From positions 124,001 to 188,000 of the forward strand of contig NZ_CP093366.1 of assembly GCF_023380265.1 (NCBI RefSeq): 64,000 nt of DNA, written 5' to 3'. Made by a program: the position numbers and the translations under genes. Numbering within the stretch: the first letter of the stretch is position 1; each line of letters opens with the position of its first letter. The stretch comes from Bombilactobacillus folatiphilus. GTDB lineage: Bacteria > Bacillota > Bacilli > Lactobacillales > Lactobacillaceae. A model generated the notes under the pieces. That model was not told the origin of the DNA. It saw only the letters and a program-made list of their open reading frames with translations, and made no database searches. Positions 40,482 to 61,753 of this stretch are shown here, piece after piece.

Positions 40482-41866
40482 TTATTTTCTGGTAAACTCA
40501 ATTTCACCTAACGCATGTTGTGCGGCCAGATTTAATAAACTCCATTGACGATCAAAGCCGGGCTGGAAGAAGAAATCGGCTTCAGCCAAATCTTCAAGGG
40601 TTAATTGATGTTGAATTGCCAAAGATAAAACATTACCTTGGGCGGTAATATCAGCAGTCGATAAGACGGCACCGCCCAGAAGGCGATGACTTTTTGGATC
40701 GAAGAATAATTGAACATAAACATCAGGATTGCCTTGGTTTTGAGGCACATAACTAGGACGCAAAGTGTCTTGATAAAAATCACTTGCGATAGGCACACTG
40801 GCATTTTGAGCAGTGAAACTATTCAATCCACTTTCGGCAAAATGATAGTCAAAAGCACTCAAAGCAGAAGAACCTACGACGCCACCAAATGGTTTGTTAG
40901 GTTGATCTTCAAACAAATGTTGCACGATATAGCGAGCTTCACGCCGTGCTACCGTGGCGAGGGCAATTGGCATTTTTTGACCAGCCGCCACCGAATAAGC
41001 CAAAGTCGCATCACCGATAGCATAGACATCAGGCAAGTTCGTTCTTAAATACTCATCTGTTTGAATCCAACCGCGCTCATCTAAATCAATCGTACCTTTG
41101 AGCCAATCGGTAGCAGGTTTTACACCAGTTGCTTGAATCACTAAATCGCTCGGATAAGTGCCTTGATTGCTTTTGACTGCTTTAACTTGACCATTTTGCC
41201 CGCTAAATTCTGTAATTTGGACATTCGTTTGTACGTTAACACCTTGATCCGTTAAATGTTGGCTCAAAATATCAGTCATTTCCGCGTCTAAATAAGTGCC
41301 CAGAGGTCGTGCAATAACGTCTAACAGTGTCACATGTTTGCCAGCTTTAGTAGCAGCTTCGGCAGCCTCAATACCAATATAGCCAGCACCAACAACGGTC
41401 ACATTTTTGACTTGCGGGTCGGTTAATTTCGCTTTAATTTTAGTTGCCCAATCAAAGCCCCACATTAAATCGACATTGTCTAGATCGTGGCCGGGAATGG
41501 GTAGCGATTTAGGTGTGACGCCTGACTGAGAATCAATTTGTCATAAGCAACCACTTGATTTTGACCAGTTTTGGTATCTGTCACATTAACGGTCTTTTGG
41601 TCCCCGTTAATCTTAGTGACTTGATGATTATTACAAATATGCACATTTTCCTATGGAAAACTTTCCGGGCGAAAATTGCGGACATCGTTGACATCCGTCA
41701 CGCAATCTTCCAAATACAATTCCATTCCGCAAGACATGAACGAAATAAAGTCATCCGCTTCAAATAATGTAATCTCCACATTATCATGATAACGTGTTAA
41801 TAATTCTAAAATTGATTGATGTCCACTGTGGGAAGCACCTACAATCACTACTTTTTGTTTTGCCAT
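40482..41866 (-). pseudogene. npr: NADH peroxidase, inactivated
   Basis: A gene for a flavin NADH peroxidase that reduces hydrogen peroxide to water. The N-terminus keeps the catalytic His13 (GASHSGHQ) and Cys46 (FISFMSCGMELYL), matching His10/Cys42 of the enterococcal enzyme. A TAG at 41651-41653 ends translation after RNFRPESFP; the same frame continues with ENVHICNNHQVTK. Near 41523 one base is missing, where SPGVTPKSLPIPG is restored only by adding a C. The rest of the frame (GYIGIEAAEAATKAG, IYAIGDAT-like site, DFFFQPGFD) is intact to 40482. A GGAAGGAAG box and the ATG at 41866 are still good, suggesting recent decay. Confidence 0.88.
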
Positions 41867-42142
41867 CTTTAATCTTCCTTCCAAAAATTCGACCCAACAA
41901 CCCTAGTTATAATGACATCTGGAGTGCTTGGTTACCTTTAAAATAGCACACTCAACAAGGGTGTTCAAAATCAAAATCGGTAGCTGGAAGTGGAAATAGT
42001 CTATATTCGCTAGTTTAGATCCATTATAAACTGGAAAGTTTTTTTCATGGCTGATCTAAGCATGATGTATTTTATAAGGACATTTTGCAAAGTAATGCTA
42101 ATTTTATTTACGGATTCTATGGAAAAATTATGAAATGGCTAC
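41867..42142. other. non-coding stretch upstream of npr remnant
   Basis: About 280 nt between the divergent npr remnant and the attenuated permease. It must hold the old npr promoter. I see no gene and no clear operator. Confidence 0.4.
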
Positions 42143-42171
42143 TTGCTTTCTTTTAATAATAATGATATTCT
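42143..42171 (+). promoter_or_regulatory. promoter candidate for attenuated permease
   Basis: TTGCTT (42143-42148) and TATTCT (42166-42171) are spaced 17 nt and lie 34 nt upstream of the leader ORF. The -10 is weak. Confidence 0.45.
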
Positions 42172-42204
42172 TCTAATTATTAATTGCAGAGCGGAGAAAA
42201 TGTG

Positions 42205-42294
42205 ATGGTTCTTTGTCCAGAAATTCAATTTAGTTTCGAAAATTATCTAACAACTACCACCTCAACCACCATTATGGCTGGTTGGGATGTTTAA
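42205..42294 (+). CDS. Thr-rich leader peptide (attenuator)
   Basis: A 29-residue ORF with its own GGAG box 8 nt before the ATG. Codons 16-22 read Thr-Thr-Thr-Thr-Ser-Thr-Thr (ACA ACT ACC ACC TCA ACC ACC), six Thr codons in seven, followed by IMAGWDV and TAA. A peptide with such a run just before competing RNA stems is the hallmark of a ribosome-stalling leader, as in the thr operon leader of enterobacteria. It is not expected to have a function as a protein. Confidence 0.75.
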   Translation: MVLCPEIQFSFENYLTTTTSTTIMAGWDV

Positions 42295-42374
42295 CGTGCT
42301 GCTAAAATAAACGTAAACAAAACGTCCAATCAGCTAATATCCCAATGCGATATTAAGTTGGTTGGACGTTTTTT
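42263..42374 (+). promoter_or_regulatory. transcription attenuator: protector, antiterminator and terminator stems
   Basis: Three mutually exclusive pairings are visible. Region 1:2: CAACC...CCA (42263-42271) pairs with TGG...GGTTG (42275-42284). Region 2:3: GCTGGTTGG (42277-42285) pairs with CCAATCAGC (42326-42334), extended by ATTA with TAAT. Region 3:4: AAAACGTCCAA (42319-42329) pairs with TTGGACGTTTT (42362-42372), with a continuous inner stem to AATATC/GATATT and a T-run to 42374, 26 nt before the permease start. Stalling at the Thr codons would free region 2 to form 2:3 and prevent termination. Confidence 0.8.
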
Positions 42375-42399
42375 AGTTGATTTGAGAAGGAGTTTGGTG

Positions 42400-43788
42400 A
42401 TGAAAGCTAAGCAGGAATATTCAGAACGCCAGTTAAAGCGTTCGTTATCAGGTGGGCAAATGCAGATGATTGCCTTGGGCGGAACCATTGGGGTAGGGTT
42501 ATTTATGGGTTCCACCTCGACCATTAAATGGACGGGACCCTCAGTCTTATTAGCCTATGCTTTTGTGGGAATTTTATTGTACTTAGTCATGCGGGCATTA
42601 GGGGAAATGATTTTTATTAATCCCACTACGGGCTCGTTCGCGGATTATGCCACCACTTATATTCATCCACTGGCTGGATATTTAACCAAGTGGAGCAACG
42701 TGTTTCAATATATTATTGTGGGTATTAGTGAAGTGATTGCTGTTAGTACTTATTTGAATTATTGGTGGCCTAACTTGCCCGACTGGGTTTCGGGGATTGT
42801 GGTGATTGTTACTTTAGCCCTCGCTAATTTAACCTCGGCGAAAGCTTATGGCACGTTGGAATTTTATTTTGCATTGATCAAAGTGGTCACGATTATCTTG
42901 ATGATTGTCTTAGGGTTTTTGGTGATCTTTTTGGGTTTGGGGAATCATTGGCAGGCTATTGGTCTGAGTAACTTATGGAAACACGGCGGCTTTTTTACGG
43001 GTGGCGTCAAAGGTTTTATCTTTGCATTGTCCATTGTCGTAGGCTCGTATCAAGGAATTGAAGTTTTGGGTATTACGGCGGGCGAAGCAGCTCATCCTAA
43101 GCACGCGATTGTAGCTTCGATTAAATCCATTGTGTGGCGCATCTTGATTTTTTATATTGGCGCAATTTTTGTGATTGTGACAATTTATCCGTGGAATCAA
43201 CTTGAAAGTGTCGGTTCACCTTTTGTGGAAACTTTTTCGAAAGTGGGAATTGCAGGTGCCGCGGGAATTATTAATTTTGTTGTGTTAACGGCGGCGATGT
43301 CGGGGGCTAATTCCGGAATTTACAGTTCGAGCCGGATGTTATTCAAATTATCTAAAGATGGTGAAATCTCTGAATCCATGTCGAAATTATCTACTAGACA
43401 GGTGCCATATGTGGCGATTCTAGCGATTGCAGGTGGGATTTTATTAGGCTTTATTTTGAATACAGTCTTTTCTGCGTATAGTAAATCGACTGCCAATCTG
43501 TTTGTCTTAGTTTATAGTTCCAGTGTATTGCCGGGGATGGTGCCGTGGATTGTTATTTTGTTGTCGGAACTGCGTTTTCGGGCGGATAATCAAGATTTGA
43601 TGGTTGATCACCCGTTCAAAATGCCCTTGTATCCGTGGACAAATTATCTGGCATTGGTCTCGTTGATTATTATTGTCATTTTCATGTTCATTAATCCTGA
43701 TACCCGTATTTCGGCCGCGATTGGCGCCGGATTCTTAATTCTCTTATCATTGAATTTTTGGCTCCGTCATCGAAAACAAAAGCGGTAA
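42400..43788 (+). CDS. AAT-family amino-acid permease, probably threonine/serine
   Basis: A 462-residue, roughly 12-TM proton-coupled amino-acid permease of the AAT family (MIALGGTIGVGLFMGSTSTI, then YLVMRALGEMIF and an FSKVGIAGAAGIINFVVLTAAMSGANSG segment). The upstream Thr-codon attenuator implies induction when charged tRNA-Thr is scarce, so threonine (perhaps also serine) is the likely substrate; sequence alone would not tell. The ATG at 42400 has AAGGAG 7 nt upstream; earlier in-frame starts fall inside the terminator hairpin. It ends at its own terminator before hdcA. Confidence 0.82.
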   Translation: MKAKQEYSERQLKRSLSGGQMQMIALGGTIGVGLFMGSTSTIKWTGPSVLLAYAFVGILLYLVMRALGEMIFINPTTGSFADYATTYIHPLAGYLTKWSNVFQYIIVGISEVIAVSTYLNYWWPNLPDWVSGIVVIVTLALANLTSAKAYGTLEFYFALIKVVTIILMIVLGFLVIFLGLGNHWQAIGLSNLWKHGGFFTGGVKGFIFALSIVVGSYQGIEVLGITAGEAAHPKHAIVASIKSIVWRILIFYIGAIFVIVTIYPWNQLESVGSPFVETFSKVGIAGAAGIINFVVLTAAMSGANSGIYSSSRMLFKLSKDGEISESMSKLSTRQVPYVAILAIAGGILLGFILNTVFSAYSKSTANLFVLVYSSSVLPGMVPWIVILLSELRFRADNQDLMVDHPFKMPLYPWTNYLALVSLIIIVIFMFINPDTRISAAIGAGFLILLSLNFWLRHRKQKR

Positions 43789-43835: not shown

Positions 43836-44002
43836 GGTTTCAGAAAGTCAATTGGGCACACTTATCCATAATTAATATCATAAATATATTTAGATTCAAC
43901 TAATATGTCTTATATAGCTTATTACTTGATAAATAAAAATGTGGATTTTATGATATGCCGTATAAAGGGCTGGCAAAGTCACAAAACTTTGGAGGTAACA
44001 AA

Positions 44003-44938
44003 ATGGCAGAATTAGATTTAAGTTTGAACAAAATTGGCATTGATCGAATTGCGATCAGTCCTTATAAACAATATTCACGCGGTTACATGGAACCGGGTAA
44101 TCTGGGCAATGGCTATGTTACTGGAGTCAAAGTGGACGCGGGCGTTCGTGAAAAAACGGATGATGATGTGTTAGACGGCATTGTTTCGTATGATCGAGCC
44201 GAAACGAAAAATGCTTATATTGGGCAAATTAATATGACAACAGCGTCTAGTTTTACTGGACCACAAGGGCATTTTTTAGGGTATGACTTATTGCGCAATC
44301 CGCAAGTGGATCAAGCAAAGCCGTTATTTAGTGTGAAACAATGGGATGGCAGTGATTTGCCCATTTATGATGCCAAGCCGTTGCAGGATTCGTTAGTGGA
44401 ATATTTTGGCGTGCGGGATCAACGTCGACATTATCCAGCACCGGGGAGTTTCATTGTTTGTGCGAATAAGGGTGTCACCGCTTCGCGACCTAAAGCCGAT
44501 CAAGAGATGAAGCCGGGGCAAGGTTACGGTGTGTGGTCAGCAATTGCGATTTCGTTTGCCAAGGATCCTGAACGTAATTCGAGTATGTACATTGAAGATG
44601 CGGGTGTGTGGAATACGCCGAATGAAGAAGAATTGCTTGAATTTTTGAATCATCGGCGTCAAGCCGTTGCCAAATCCATTGCAGCGTGTGGTCAAGATGC
44701 GGATACTTCGTTTGCAAGTTCGTGGATTGGTTTTGCGCATACGATGATGGAGCCGGGACAAATTGGTAATGCGATTACCGCGGCACCCTATTTTGCGATG
44801 CCAGTTGATTCGATTCCGAATGGTTCACTCTTAACGCCAGATAAAGATATGGAAATTATGGAAAAGTTGACGTTACCACAATGGCTAGACCAGATGAATT
44901 ATGAATCACTGGTCGAAACTAAAAAGATTAAATACTAA
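44003..44938 (+). CDS. hdcA: pyruvoyl-dependent histidine decarboxylase proenzyme
   Basis: A 311-residue proenzyme that self-cleaves between Ser82 and Ser83 (NMTTASSFTG), turning Ser83 into the pyruvoyl cofactor and yielding a beta chain and an alpha chain. Active-site residues known from the Lactobacillus 30a enzyme are present: Tyr63-Asp64 and Glu198 (SMYIEDAG). Near-identity to that enzyme is recognisable in the DDDVLDGIVSYDRAETKNAY stretch and in EPGQIGNAI. It converts histidine plus a proton to histamine and CO2. The ATG at 44003 follows GGAGG; a start at 43955 would add non-family residues. First gene of hdcA-hdcP-hdcB. Confidence 0.96.
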   Translation: MAELDLSLNKIGIDRIAISPYKQYSRGYMEPGNLGNGYVTGVKVDAGVREKTDDDVLDGIVSYDRAETKNAYIGQINMTTASSFTGPQGHFLGYDLLRNPQVDQAKPLFSVKQWDGSDLPIYDAKPLQDSLVEYFGVRDQRRHYPAPGSFIVCANKGVTASRPKADQEMKPGQGYGVWSAIAISFAKDPERNSSMYIEDAGVWNTPNEEELLEFLNHRRQAVAKSIAACGQDADTSFASSWIGFAHTMMEPGQIGNAITAAPYFAMPVDSIPNGSLLTPDKDMEIMEKLTLPQWLDQMNYESLVETKKIKY

Positions 44939-44964
44939 TTATATTAATTTGAGGGGGAATTGAT

Positions 44965-46449
44965 GTGGCTGCGCAAGAAAAGCAAGCGTCAAAAAGTTCT
45001 AATACCCAAAAAGTCGGTGTTATCGGCCTGATCGCGTTTGTTTTGTCGGCAATGGTCGGGGGCGGTATTTATGATTTGCCGCAAAACATGGCGATCAAAG
45101 CTGGGATGTTAGGCCAAGTTTTGGGTTGGATTTTAACGGGAATTATTATGTGGTTTATTGTGCGCTCATTTTTGACTCTCTCCGAAATTCGTCCGCAATT
45201 CATCACCGGTTTATACAAGTACGCAGACGATGGTTTTGGCCGCTTTACAGGCTTTTTCGTGAGTTGGGGTTACTGGATTTGCGAATGTTTCGCTAATGTC
45301 ACTTATGCCGTGTTGTTGATGTCAACATTAAATACATTATGGCCGGGAACCTTTGGCAATGGAAATAATATTCCATCGTTAATTTTGAATAGTTTAATTT
45401 TGTGGGGCATGAGTCTGTTGATCCTCAACGGCATTAAGGGTGCCAGCTGGGTTGATATCACCGGTACGGTCGTGATGCTGTTATCGACGGCGGTGTTCTT
45501 AATTACGATGATTGTGGTCTTTAATTGGGATACTTTTACTACGAACATGTTCGCTAATCACGCGGTCGCCAGTCTTGGTGATAAGAATCTGGGTTCGTTG
45601 GCCAGTCAAGTCAAGAACACCATGATGACGACCTTGTGGGTCTTTGGTGGCGTTGAAGGTGCGGTCGTCTTGTCAGGGAAGGCGCGCAGTCAAAAAGATG
45701 TGCGGACCGCTACGAAATACGGCTTCTTAATCTGTTTAGTGTTGTATGCAATGGCATCATTGTTGCCGCTAGGATTGAAAAGTTATGGACAAATTGCGGC
45801 GATGCATTCACCGTCTTCGGGTGAATTAATGAATCTGGTGGTCGGACCTTGGGGGCGTTTGGTTATTACCTTTGGCGTTATCTTGGCCGTTTTATCTAGC
45901 TGGTTGACTTGGACTTTGTTATTGTCACAAATGCCAGCGGCTGCGGCTCAAGATAAGACTTTCCCTAAGGCTTTCGCCAAGATTAATAAGAATAATGTGC
46001 CATCATTTTCCGTGATTGTGTCAACCATTGTGATGCAGGTCATTATTATCGGCACGCACTTTGCCGTCAATGCATTCAATACAATGTTGACGATTGTCGG
46101 CACCATGACAGTGCCACCGTACTTGATTTCCATGATGTATCTATTCAAATCGACAAATAGCGAACAAATGTTCAATCCGCAAAAATTAACTGTGACTTCA
46201 TCACGTCAATCAGCGCGGTACATTAGTTTGTTAGCGGCCTTAGGAACATTATTCATGGGTTACGCGGCGGGCATTGAATATACGACTTTATCATTCATTA
46301 TTTACGCTTTGGGCATTCCCGTCTTCATCTATGGACGTAAGCAATATGCGCCACATGAAGCAGTGTTTACCAAATATGAAAAGATTTTTGCAGGAATCAT
46401 TGTTTTAGTGGCTGTGTTAGGATTGATCTTTGTTTTAGCTAAACATTGA
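44965..46449 (+). CDS. hdcP: histidine/histamine antiporter
   Basis: A 494-residue APC-superfamily antiporter with about 12 membrane segments (VGVIGLIAFVLSAMVGGGIY at the start, FFVSWGYWICECFANVTY later), of the type paired with HdcA. It exchanges external histidine for histamine, generating proton motive force. The start is a GTG at 44965 with GAGGGGG at 7 nt. It lies between hdcA and hdcB, an unusual position, since in many lactobacilli the transporter precedes hdcA. Confidence 0.9.
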   Translation: MAAQEKQASKSSNTQKVGVIGLIAFVLSAMVGGGIYDLPQNMAIKAGMLGQVLGWILTGIIMWFIVRSFLTLSEIRPQFITGLYKYADDGFGRFTGFFVSWGYWICECFANVTYAVLLMSTLNTLWPGTFGNGNNIPSLILNSLILWGMSLLILNGIKGASWVDITGTVVMLLSTAVFLITMIVVFNWDTFTTNMFANHAVASLGDKNLGSLASQVKNTMMTTLWVFGGVEGAVVLSGKARSQKDVRTATKYGFLICLVLYAMASLLPLGLKSYGQIAAMHSPSSGELMNLVVGPWGRLVITFGVILAVLSSWLTWTLLLSQMPAAAAQDKTFPKAFAKINKNNVPSFSVIVSTIVMQVIIIGTHFAVNAFNTMLTIVGTMTVPPYLISMMYLFKSTNSEQMFNPQKLTVTSSRQSARYISLLAALGTLFMGYAAGIEYTTLSFIIYALGIPVFIYGRKQYAPHEAVFTKYEKIFAGIIVLVAVLGLIFVLAKH

Positions 46450-46463
46450 AGGATGGTGATTGG

Positions 46464-46994
46464 ATGAGTGCCGATTTAGCCGCGAATGAACAATTTGTTC
46501 GCAAATATTTACCGGAAGTCAAAGTGAAAAAAGTTTTGCCCGCATTAGCTAATGTGTCTGAAAAGATGAATAGTATTGCGCTTAATGAAGATGGCGCTTT
46601 GGAGCAAGTGATTTTTACCGCGGGAACCAAAGTGTTCTTCTATGATTTAAAAAAGAAGGATTCCTTACGTTACCGAAGTCGCGAGGAAGTTAAGTCAGCG
46701 CAGTGTTTGAAGGGTACGCCACATGGCAAAATCAAAATTGTGTTTGAAGATTTAGAAAAATGGGAATTTGATGATATTGTGGCAGGGCGAGCGTTTGATC
46801 TGGTACAGGCCATTAAACCGCAAACGCAAAATCAAGCTGCCTATGATAATACGATTCGAGGTGGTTTTCCGCAATTGTTGGACGCCGATCACGGACCGGA
46901 AGTGGATCGCTTGCGCAATTATATGCAAGCTGGCTTTATCAGCCAATATGAATATGATGATAGTAATCCGGCTTTGCCAAAAGCTGGTAAGTAA
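46464..46994 (+). CDS. hdcB: HdcB, histidine decarboxylase maturation protein
   Basis: A 176-residue soluble protein of the HdcB family, needed for cleavage/activation of the HdcA proenzyme in lactic acid bacteria (family knowledge). It shows no catalytic motif I recognise, and has a conserved-looking core (AYDNTIRGGFPQLLDADHGPE) and an acidic tail. The ATG at 46464 has AAGGATGG at 8 nt; a TTG at 46446 overlapping hdcP is the alternative. It ends the operon. No dedicated histidyl-tRNA synthetase gene follows, unlike several known hdc clusters. Confidence 0.88.
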   Translation: MSADLAANEQFVRKYLPEVKVKKVLPALANVSEKMNSIALNEDGALEQVIFTAGTKVFFYDLKKKDSLRYRSREEVKSAQCLKGTPHGKIKIVFEDLEKWEFDDIVAGRAFDLVQAIKPQTQNQAAYDNTIRGGFPQLLDADHGPEVDRLRNYMQAGFISQYEYDDSNPALPKAGK

Positions 46995-59002: not shown

Positions 59003-61753
59003 ATGTTATTGGATCAAATTGAATTATGTTTAAAAGAAGCAACAGCTGATGAACACTGGCAACAACATGAAATCAGCGCGGCATTTTTGTGTCAAAAATT
59101 TCGGGTTAAGCGTAATACTGTGAGTCATTATTTAAATTTGTTATTTAAGGACCATAAAGCGTTGAAAATTAATTCGCGACCTGTGATTTATTGGGATAAA
59201 CGGGTTTTGGAAACACATTATCAAGTGCGTTTGTTAGATATGTACCCGACCAGAGAAACATTATTGCAAGCATTGGCACAATCAGCGTCTGGTACGAATG
59301 CGTTTGATCAAGTGATTGGCAATCGTGGTTCGTTATATATTGCGATTGAGCGTTTGAAAATGGCAGCGAGCTATCCCCAAGGTTTATCGATTTTGTTGAC
59401 AGGACCTACGGGGGTCGGCAAAAGTTTCTTAGCCCAAGTTTATTATCAATATTGCTTGGATCAAGGCTATTTGGCGTCCAACGCGCAATTTGTTCATTTT
59501 AATTGTGCAGAATATGCTGACAATCCTGAATTATTGGCTAGTAATTTGTTTGGCTATAATCAAGGGGCATTTACAGGTGCTAGTACCGCGCAAACTGGTG
59601 TCTTTGATCAGGCCAATCACGGCGTTTTATTCTTGGATGAAGTACACCGGTTGGATGCTAAAGGTCAAGAAAAATTATTTAACTATCTGGATACGGGTTA
59701 TATCACCCCATTGGGTGGTTCAAGTAAACGGCATTTGGTGGACGTGCGCATTATTTGTGCGACCACGGAAAATCTTCAAAGTTATTTTTTGGATACTTTT
59801 TTGCGACGTATTCCGATTCAAATTGAAATTCCCAGCTTGCAACAACGGGAACTGCAGGAAGTCAAAGATTTAATCAAATTTTTTTATTGGCAGCAAGCTC
59901 AGCAATTACAGCGCAATTTACAAGTCCATCAAGCGGTCATTAAGGTTTTATGTTCCATTCGTTATCAAGGTAATATTGGTTCGCTGAAAAATGCGATTGT
60001 ACTTTCGGTAGCCAGTGCCATTCATCAGGCAACCACGCTTGTTCCGTTGAAAATCACTTTGCCGAATTTGCCACCAGAAATTTTAAATTTGAATAGTAGT
60101 CATGCCCAAGTGGTGGCGCTCCAAACCGGTTTTTTGGACATTACTGTGGAACAAACACTGGCGCAATTGATCACCAAAGAACCAGTGTTGACCGACGAAA
60201 TTCAGCAGACGATTCAACAAATTCTCAATGATTATCATCAGATGCAGTACGCGGATTTGTTCATTGAAAATAGTATTGCGAAGATTAATAAGTTATGCGA
60301 TTATCTAGTGTTTGAAAAGGATCAGCACGCTAATATTATCCCCCTTAATTTTTTTAAAAACTTATTTGAAAATGTTTTAGCAACGATTACCAAGGATCAA
60401 AATATTGATTTTACAGGTAATACGGCCTTGATTTTGTCATATTATTTTTACAATCGACAGGATTCCAATGGTTATTTGACCGGCAAGCAAGCACGTTTAG
60501 CCAAAAAAGTGGTGCATTATTTTCAAGCTTTGAATGCTAATTTACAGATTGTGGTGGAAACCATTGATAGTATCATCACGCAAAGTGTGGGTCTGGCTTA
60601 TGATTTGATGGATGCAGTGTTTTTGTACATTTTTTTGTATAGCATTATTCAAAAGTCGCAAACCAGTGCCTTGCGGTGTATCGTTTTGGCACATGGTTAT
60701 TCTACCGCCAGCAGTATTGTGAATGTGGTGAACGGTATGCATCATCTGCATATTTTGGATGCAATTGATATGCCGGTGGATATTCAAATTGCCACCGTTG
60801 GTCAAAAAATCAATCATTACATTCAAAATCATCAAATTGATCAAGGACTGATTTTGATGGTGGATATGGGTTCCTTAGAAGGTGTGCAAAAATATATTGC
60901 GCGAGATGTGGAATTCCCGATTGCCATTTTGAATAATGTATCCACGCAAGCTGCTTTGTTAGTGGCAACAGGTATTCAACAAAAGCAAAGTTTACCCAAA
61001 ATTATGACGAGTGTGAAAAAGCAAATTCAGCCCGAGCAACAAATGATTTATCCACAAAAAGTCAAAAAGAATTTAATCATTACTTGTTGTCTGACGGGGA
61101 TCGGAACCGCCACGAAAATTCGTAAATTAGTGTTGGATAGTTTGCCTGCCAATGCCCATTTGTCGGTGTTGGCGTTTGAAGAAAGTCAACTTAAGGACTC
61201 CCAAGAGCTTGCTTTGTTGCGTCATGTTTATAATATTGTCATGGTGATTGGTACGATGGATCCGCAGTTACCGCAGATTCCGTATTTTTCGTTAGAAAGC
61301 ATGATTTCGGGGGCAGATCTCACAGCATTAACGCACGTTTTAAGTCAATATTTGAGTGAACAGGAGTTAAACGATTTTAATGATCGCTTGATTCACAATT
61401 TTACTTTGCAACGGGTGTTAAACTCAATTACGATTTTAGATGTCAATGTTGTGATGCAAAATATTGACGAAGCTTTCAAGAATTATACTCAGCTCAGTGG
61501 ACAACGCTTGAGTAGTGGCACACGAATGACGCTATATGTCCATGTAAGTTATTTGGTTGAGCGTTTAATTCGTAATGAACCCATCACCACGTATAATTGG
61601 GACAGTTTAACCGACACAAAAAGTTTAACAATCTTTCAGAATATCCAAAAAGCGTTTAGTGTCATCGAAACTGAATATAGTGTCACGATTCCTCAAGCTG
61701 AATACGGTTATATTTATGATATTATCGCCGCTGATACCGTTAATCAGTTATAA
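59003..61753 (+). CDS. levR: LevR-type sigma-54 activator with PRD and EIIA/EIIB-like domains
   Basis: A 916-residue activator. In order: an N-terminal HTH (about 20-60, AFLCQKFRVKRNTVSHYLNLL); a AAA+ domain (about 100-345) with Walker A GPTGVGKS (134-141), the sigma-54-contact loop GAFTGA (188-193) and Walker B GVLFLDEV; PRD1; an EIIA-Man-like domain (around VLAHGYSTASSIVNVVNGM, about 555-640); an EIIB-Gat-like segment with Cys in CCLTGIGTATKIRK (about 695); and PRD2. Phosphorylation by HPr and EII components tunes it to sugar supply. Its end carries a hairpin that also bears the PTS promoter. Alternative names are manR or LevR-like. Confidence 0.9.
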   Translation: MLLDQIELCLKEATADEHWQQHEISAAFLCQKFRVKRNTVSHYLNLLFKDHKALKINSRPVIYWDKRVLETHYQVRLLDMYPTRETLLQALAQSASGTNAFDQVIGNRGSLYIAIERLKMAASYPQGLSILLTGPTGVGKSFLAQVYYQYCLDQGYLASNAQFVHFNCAEYADNPELLASNLFGYNQGAFTGASTAQTGVFDQANHGVLFLDEVHRLDAKGQEKLFNYLDTGYITPLGGSSKRHLVDVRIICATTENLQSYFLDTFLRRIPIQIEIPSLQQRELQEVKDLIKFFYWQQAQQLQRNLQVHQAVIKVLCSIRYQGNIGSLKNAIVLSVASAIHQATTLVPLKITLPNLPPEILNLNSSHAQVVALQTGFLDITVEQTLAQLITKEPVLTDEIQQTIQQILNDYHQMQYADLFIENSIAKINKLCDYLVFEKDQHANIIPLNFFKNLFENVLATITKDQNIDFTGNTALILSYYFYNRQDSNGYLTGKQARLAKKVVHYFQALNANLQIVVETIDSIITQSVGLAYDLMDAVFLYIFLYSIIQKSQTSALRCIVLAHGYSTASSIVNVVNGMHHLHILDAIDMPVDIQIATVGQKINHYIQNHQIDQGLILMVDMGSLEGVQKYIARDVEFPIAILNNVSTQAALLVATGIQQKQSLPKIMTSVKKQIQPEQQMIYPQKVKKNLIITCCLTGIGTATKIRKLVLDSLPANAHLSVLAFEESQLKDSQELALLRHVYNIVMVIGTMDPQLPQIPYFSLESMISGADLTALTHVLSQYLSEQELNDFNDRLIHNFTLQRVLNSITILDVNVVMQNIDEAFKNYTQLSGQRLSSGTRMTLYVHVSYLVERLIRNEPITTYNWDSLTDTKSLTIFQNIQKAFSVIETEYSVTIPQAEYGYIYDIIAADTVNQL

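Follow-up and report, generated by a model that had tools for sequence, protein, structure and literature searches.

In Escherichia coli, the thrL attenuator of the thr operon controls biosynthesis, its leader peptide containing threonine codons mixed with isoleucine codons. The locus described here, in Bombilactobacillus folatiphilus, has in common with thrL a leader peptide with threonine codons, alternative stems and an intrinsic terminator; whereas thrL controls biosynthesis, this leader precedes a predicted importer in a genome without detected thrB or thrC. In Firmicutes, branched-chain leader-peptide attenuators of biosynthesis have been shown by experiment for ilv-leu of Listeria (Rli60; PMC5864092) and for ilv of Staphylococcus aureus (PMC5794164), the latter paper also citing predicted branched-chain attenuators in Lactococcus and Streptococcus; these and the present locus are all amino-acid leader attenuators of Firmicutes, but the present one is predicted from sequence. 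Histidine leader peptides have been described for hisS*/hisZ of Bacillus (PMC2965389) and for his operons in several Firmicutes (PMC9413887); like the present leader, they replace T-boxes or other regulators of other species and were predicted by comparison, but they concern histidine and synthetase-like and biosynthesis genes. In the Bacillus cereus group, threonine T-boxes precede transporter genes (an APC-type steT orthologue and a LIVCS gene; PMC2494555); here too Thr-tRNA is sensed before an amino-acid transporter, but by direct tRNA binding and before other permeases. Leader-peptide attenuators are thus known in Firmicutes for histidine and the branched-chain amino acids, and the combination of threonine with a transporter is new as far as these sources extend: the open-access literature, among the matches listed, contains no threonine leader before a permease in lactobacilli and no described case of a threonine leader at a permease elsewhere, as the earlier note on this DNA had supposed. 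Threonine and a transporter would thereby join a short list of such attenuators in Firmicutes, across many food and gut lactobacilli.

The window, meaning the whole stretch of 64,000 nucleotides that was analysed, contains the following features at this locus:

42143 to 42171, plus strand: possible promoter (uncertain), TTGCTT, 17 nt, TATTCT, read from the sequence
42193 to 42196, plus strand: GGAG ribosome-binding site of the leader ORF, read from the sequence
42205 to 42294, plus strand: leader ORF of 29 codons and a stop (ATG at 42205, TAA at 42292-42294)
42250 to 42270, plus strand: sensor codons, six Thr and one Ser, overlapping region 1
42261 to 42271, plus strand: region 1, partner of region 2 (1:2 hairpin, -14 kcal/mol)
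42275 to 42286, plus strand: region 2, partner of region 1 or 3, with core 42277-42285
42319 to 42341, plus strand: region 3, the 5' arm of the terminator, with the 3' arm of the antiterminator at about 42320-42336
42349 to 42374, plus strand: region 4, the 3' arm of the terminator and T-run 42369-42374, from sequence, folding and covariation
42400 to 43788, plus strand: APC-family permease, nearest to ThrP, with its own SD (AAGGAG) just upstream

The predicted leader peptide, MVLCPEIQFSFENYLTTTTSTTIMAGWDV, has TTTTSTT close to its C-terminal end, so that a short, apparently translatable ORF carries a run of codons for the putative regulating amino acid. The earlier note had reported this 29-codon ORF with its own GGAG and six Thr codons in seven, a strong terminator with a T-run before the permease, and nine-base cores for regions 2 and 3 with three competing pairings; all of these hold at their exact positions, and the three pairings fold in silico. 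When the window was scanned for short ORFs in which one residue fills at least five of eight positions, 48 rows resulted, and two ORFs remain when at least six in eight and a hairpin below -12 kcal/mol before a nearby T-run are demanded: the Thr leader (-26.7) and a Leu-rich ORF on the minus strand at 61072 (-12.2). An SD-like word, from a loose motif set, precedes the leader-ORF ATG in 37 of 37 leader loci. The consensus scan gave no forward promoter at the leader, and our own pattern picked out some promoter-like site at 10 of 37 leader loci, the window not among them; the TTGCTT-17-TATTCT arrangement, considered as a promoter, is absent from both at the window, and a TTG..., 17 nt, TATTCT arrangement is present in 7 of the 37 leader loci.

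The core of region 2 (GCTGGTTGG) can pair with region 1 or with the core of region 3 at 42326-42334 (CCAATCAGC). The terminator (42319-42372) has a folding energy of -27.9 kcal/mol (z -6.35), a value that none of 200 shuffles equals, and it ends in a six-T run (42369-42374) upstream of the permease ATG at 42400; since the gene upstream lies on the opposite strand, this terminator belongs to the 5' leader RNA of the permease itself. The 2:3 antiterminator reaches -21.3 kcal/mol (z -2.84, 2 of 200 shuffles, on the piece 42245-42345; z -3.05, 0 of 200 shuffles, on the shorter piece 42264-42345), and the 1:2 hairpin -14 kcal/mol (z -2.54; 3 of 200 shuffles as good). In silico, an intrinsic terminator before the putatively regulated gene is therefore accompanied by an antiterminator that excludes it.

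From the ORF, the in silico pairings, their conservation and the kinship of the permease, all of which the analysis observed directly, we infer transcription start, stalling, the switch itself and the carriage of threonine by the permease: the leader would be a transcription attenuator of the ribosome-mediated kind, responding to charged tRNA-Thr and governing an importer of threonine, or probably of threonine and serine. When Thr-tRNA is plentiful, the ribosome would reach the leader stop codon and cover region 2, leaving the 3:4 terminator to halt RNA polymerase near 42374; a shortage of Thr-tRNA would make the ribosome stall within the Thr run, region 2 would pair with the emerging region 3, the terminator would be pre-empted and the permease transcribed. 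If the leader were not translated, 1:2 would form first and termination would be the default.

A ribosome covers about 13 nt downstream of its A-site codon. With this value assumed, folding indicates that a stalled ribosome frees region 2 and that a ribosome at the stop codon covers it: a stall at the fourth Thr codon exposes RNA from 42273 onward, which forms 2:3 at -17.9 kcal/mol when it ends at 42334 and -21.3 when it ends at 42345, and a ribosome at the stop codon exposes RNA from 42305 onward, in which nothing more than a -1.5 hairpin forms before the terminator (-27.9) does. With the ribosome at the sixth Thr codon, region 2 is already partly hidden (-13.1 at 42345), and the first four Thr codons are accordingly expected to matter most. 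In untranslated RNA the best fold holds 1:2 up to 42334, 2:3 at 42345 (-29.4) and 1:2 with the terminator at 42375 (-55.6). Because untranslated RNA ending at 42345 prefers 2:3, default termination would depend on kinetics, and because the terminator wins in all full-length folds, the switch itself must be kinetic.

The permease matches PF00324, the family of APC-type amino acid permeases, and its best NCBI family is ThrP (NF047867; 565.7 bits), followed by an E. coli 'amino acid permease' family (559 bits) and ProY (398.1). ThrP of E. coli is thus the closest named family, yet the score falls below the NCBI cut-off of 850 bits, a value exceeded in none of 198 genomes of the order and in one of 14 control genomes, and we name ThrP as nearest relative only. 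ThrP (YifK) of E. coli is a permease of threonine and, less, of serine (PMC10070963); the permease of the window is a probable threonine transporter, and the leader predicts this substrate for a gene whose annotation is no more than 'amino acid permease'. Searches of the genome (97.24% complete) yield no match to thrC, which 14 of 14 controls possess, and no match to thrB above cut-off, with three weak matches (11 of 14 controls are above it). Threonine synthesis is thus probably lacking and the organism probably a threonine auxotroph, the completeness of 97% meaning that the missing thrB and thrC are no proof of auxotrophy. Beside the permease lies an NADH oxidase/CoA-disulfide reductase-like gene (40482-41884, minus strand) that is apparently broken: a stop closes its 77-aa 5' piece, and the C-terminal part lies in an ORF of its own, of 327 aa. 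Directly downstream of the permease (43955-46994, plus strand) is a histidine decarboxylase cluster comprising a pyruvoyl-type HdcA (545.9 bits, over the cut-off), a histidine-histamine antiporter-like protein (650.4 bits, cut-off 725) and a 182-aa ORF without any NCBIfam match.

Orthologous loci were taken from a scan of genome contigs with the permease (80 loci), and 60 relatives were searched in addition. An upstream ORF that has a start codon and contains at least five Thr in eight codons is present at 37 of 81 loci (the 80 named loci and the window), and one with at least six in eight at 32; five in eight is reached by 4 of 3,240 dinucleotide shuffles and 13 of 2,994 other slices of the same loci, six in eight by none of either. 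Classification of 108 loci, some genomes being counted twice, yields 42 with a leader, 9 with a T-box and 57 with neither; leader bearers include Weissella, Pediococcus, Ligilactobacillus, Limosilactobacillus and entries labelled just Lactobacillus sp. The Thr run is kept as TTTTSTT, TSTSTTTT or variants, and the remainder of the peptide turns over, with differing length before the run. In the best eight-codon stretches of the 37 loci, ACC occurs 122 times, ACA 74, ACT 18 and ACG 6. Three Limosilactobacillus loci (L057, L060, L066) have only three or four Thr codons; in the trees they bear a manually assigned 'leader' label, whereas the classification rule makes them 'none'. Across the family, the nucleotide core ACCWCYACCTCAAYCAC, a strict pattern that the window itself escapes, occurs in 38 of 397 genomes (6 matches for the reversed control); of the 30 matches inspected, 29 adjoin the permease, and one match (L134) lies inside another ORF in a different frame. 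Upstream of the W. kandleri permease (L067), the place of the Thr run is taken by a short ORF (LTATPIRL) that has just two Thr codons; it is perhaps a decayed leader, and L055 is similar.

The earlier note had proposed looking in relatives for conserved Thr runs and for compensatory changes in the three stems. The runs are largely as it anticipated (37 loci against four shuffles at five in eight); compensatory changes are clear in the terminator, weak in 2:3 and barely assessable in 1:2, which is nearly invariant. In alignment A2 (12 sequences of the Weissella/Pediococcus type), 91.8% of terminator cells are paired and 11 of 16 pairs have two-sided changes (0 of 500 shuffles). The A2 antiterminator is paired in 96.6% of cells (1 of 500 shuffles), versions slid out of register in at most 55.6%; its covariation score is equalled by 5 of 500 shuffles, and the number of its pairs with two-sided changes, two, by 124 of 500. 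Covariation is accordingly strong for the terminator and only modest for the antiterminator. In 1:2, 84 of 84 A2 cells (100%) are paired and six of seven pairs never vary, so that covariation gives nothing for or against this hairpin. In alignment A3 (18 Limosilactobacillus sequences) the antiterminator is 98.1% paired, with no two-sided change, so that covariation is neutral on 2:3 there. From one type to the other the two arms differ together: GCTGGTTGG is matched by CCAACCAGC in Weissella and GTGGTTGAG by CTCAACCAC in most A3 rows, where regions 1 and 3 share the word CTCAACCAC, complementary to region 2. In 34 of 42 leader loci, no more than 25 of 500 shuffles equal the 2:3 duplex; the 42 include near-copies and three weak loci and leave out L002, L004 and L005, and the eight beyond the 34 are L006, L035, L039, L040, L041, L057, L060 and L080, and for L057 and L060 the script picked the wrong ORF or terminator. 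Conserved Thr runs, 2:3 duplexes and a covarying terminator together argue for the reading of the earlier note, and we regard a ribosome-mediated threonine attenuator before the permease as highly probable.

The alternative that survives best, though it is improbable, is that the leader senses serine too, or a general slowing of translation, rather than threonine alone. Serine codons do stand amid the 220 Thr codons of the 37 loci (35 TCA and 21 TCC), and ThrP of E. coli carries serine as well (PMC10070963); but TCA falls within the part that pairs with region 2, and this pairing can explain its conservation, and the T-box alignments at orthologues read the threonine codon ACU. Much less likely is that the peptide itself acts, as an arrest peptide or small functional protein sensing an antibiotic or other stress, in the manner of the leader peptides described for msrD and erm genes. 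We rejected a functional peptide because mainly the Thr run is conserved, sequence and length before it varying freely; moreover, serine inside the run is dispensable (none between the Thr codons of L080, one in L064), and the target is a Thr-type permease.

Slightly less likely again is that threonine is read directly by a T-box or other metabolite-binding riboswitch, with the Thr-rich ORF playing no part. Orthologues in other Lactobacillaceae do have T-boxes upstream: nine orthologous permease loci carry one instead of a leader, with Rfam E-values of 2e-11 or better, and three of the nine exceed the gathering score. At the window, however, no Rfam family matches at gathering score and neither the T-box core GGGTGGNACCNCG nor the T-box model matches at the leader, for which reason a T-box or other Rfam element was rejected there. 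Nor does any leader locus among 78 of the 80 named loci scanned (all except L033 and L058) contain a T-box at gathering score, the core is absent from 600 upstream bases in the 40 leader loci examined, and the Thr codons are conserved. A chance meeting of a Thr-rich ORF with an ordinary terminator, for which the shortness of the ORF alone speaks, is scarcely credible and was rejected on the shuffle counts given above, on conservation across genera and on the position of the terminator between a divergent gene and the permease to be silenced.

The T-boxes at orthologues also bear on the signal that the preferred reading, a threonine attenuator, assumes. The specifier, which we take to be the triplet immediately preceding the normally conserved A of the specifier loop in T-box alignments, is ACU (Thr) in 8 of 8 alignments inspected (L081, L082, L089, L011, L012, L014, L019 and L022), the following base being C in L089 and L022, where A is usual; the T-box locus L028 has the sequence ACTACC at the specifier place. 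These specifiers, together with ThrP as best family, independently support threonine as the signal. The Thr leader very probably turns the permease on at threonine shortage, a task for which related bacteria use a different RNA sensor. With related lineages carrying either a T-box or a leader before the same gene, the two form a natural pair for comparing sensors of tRNA charging, and allow one to ask how T-box and leader replace each other.

Phylogenetic analysis bears on the history of the leader. In an 84-row tree, which left out L078, 16 named near-copies or distant rows and 7 further loci, all 37 leader rows (the three labelled by hand included) fall within one clade of 48 rows (support 100*) near T-box-bearing groups; 11 rows of this clade have no leader and 3 more have only three or four Thr codons. 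The rows of a 38-row tree were picked by hand, and the group tested in it was defined with the identities already known; there, seven T-box rows make up a clade (94/85) adjoining the leader clade (100/100), and the permease of the window groups with those of W. thailandensis and W. fangxianensis (99/96). The permeases of the six other Bombilactobacillus genomes searched form a separate clade with neither leader nor T-box, and placing the window permease with its own genus as one group is rejected (AU p 4.3e-54; 38-row tree). From 42248 to about 43750 the DNA is about 75% identical to that of these Weissella loci, and the flanks are without a match, which makes an old transfer of leader and gene together likely. 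A plasmid search returned 32 records with related permeases; in the 15 of these listed, the match does not start until base 275 or 278 of the query, beyond the leader, and a Thr-rich leader is absent from the two plasmid upstream regions inspected (Lactococcus and Lactiplantibacillus). Replacement of one sensor by the other would look the same as independent gain, the outgroups being without either. We lean towards a joint reading in which one permease clade within Lactobacillaceae has a Thr leader and neighbouring lineages have a Thr T-box, leader and T-box being interchangeable threonine sensors at one permease gene, and in which leader and permease moved as one module from a Weissella-like donor into the lineage of B. 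folatiphilus and replaced the copy of its genus, which lacks both sensors.

The genome of B. folatiphilus itself contains 19 T-box matches, one of them directly before thrS. The cell therefore probably employs both types of sensor, controlling thrS through a T-box and the permease through a leader peptide. The thrS T-box (G000:C1:604655-604831) is short and scores 49.2 bits, below gathering; it may possibly have an unusual stem I. Three other T-box matches, on two contigs, are equal in score (82.6 bits) and length (G000:C1:806566-806804, C1:815881-816119 and C2:9371-9609), as if a T-box-bearing unit were repeated.
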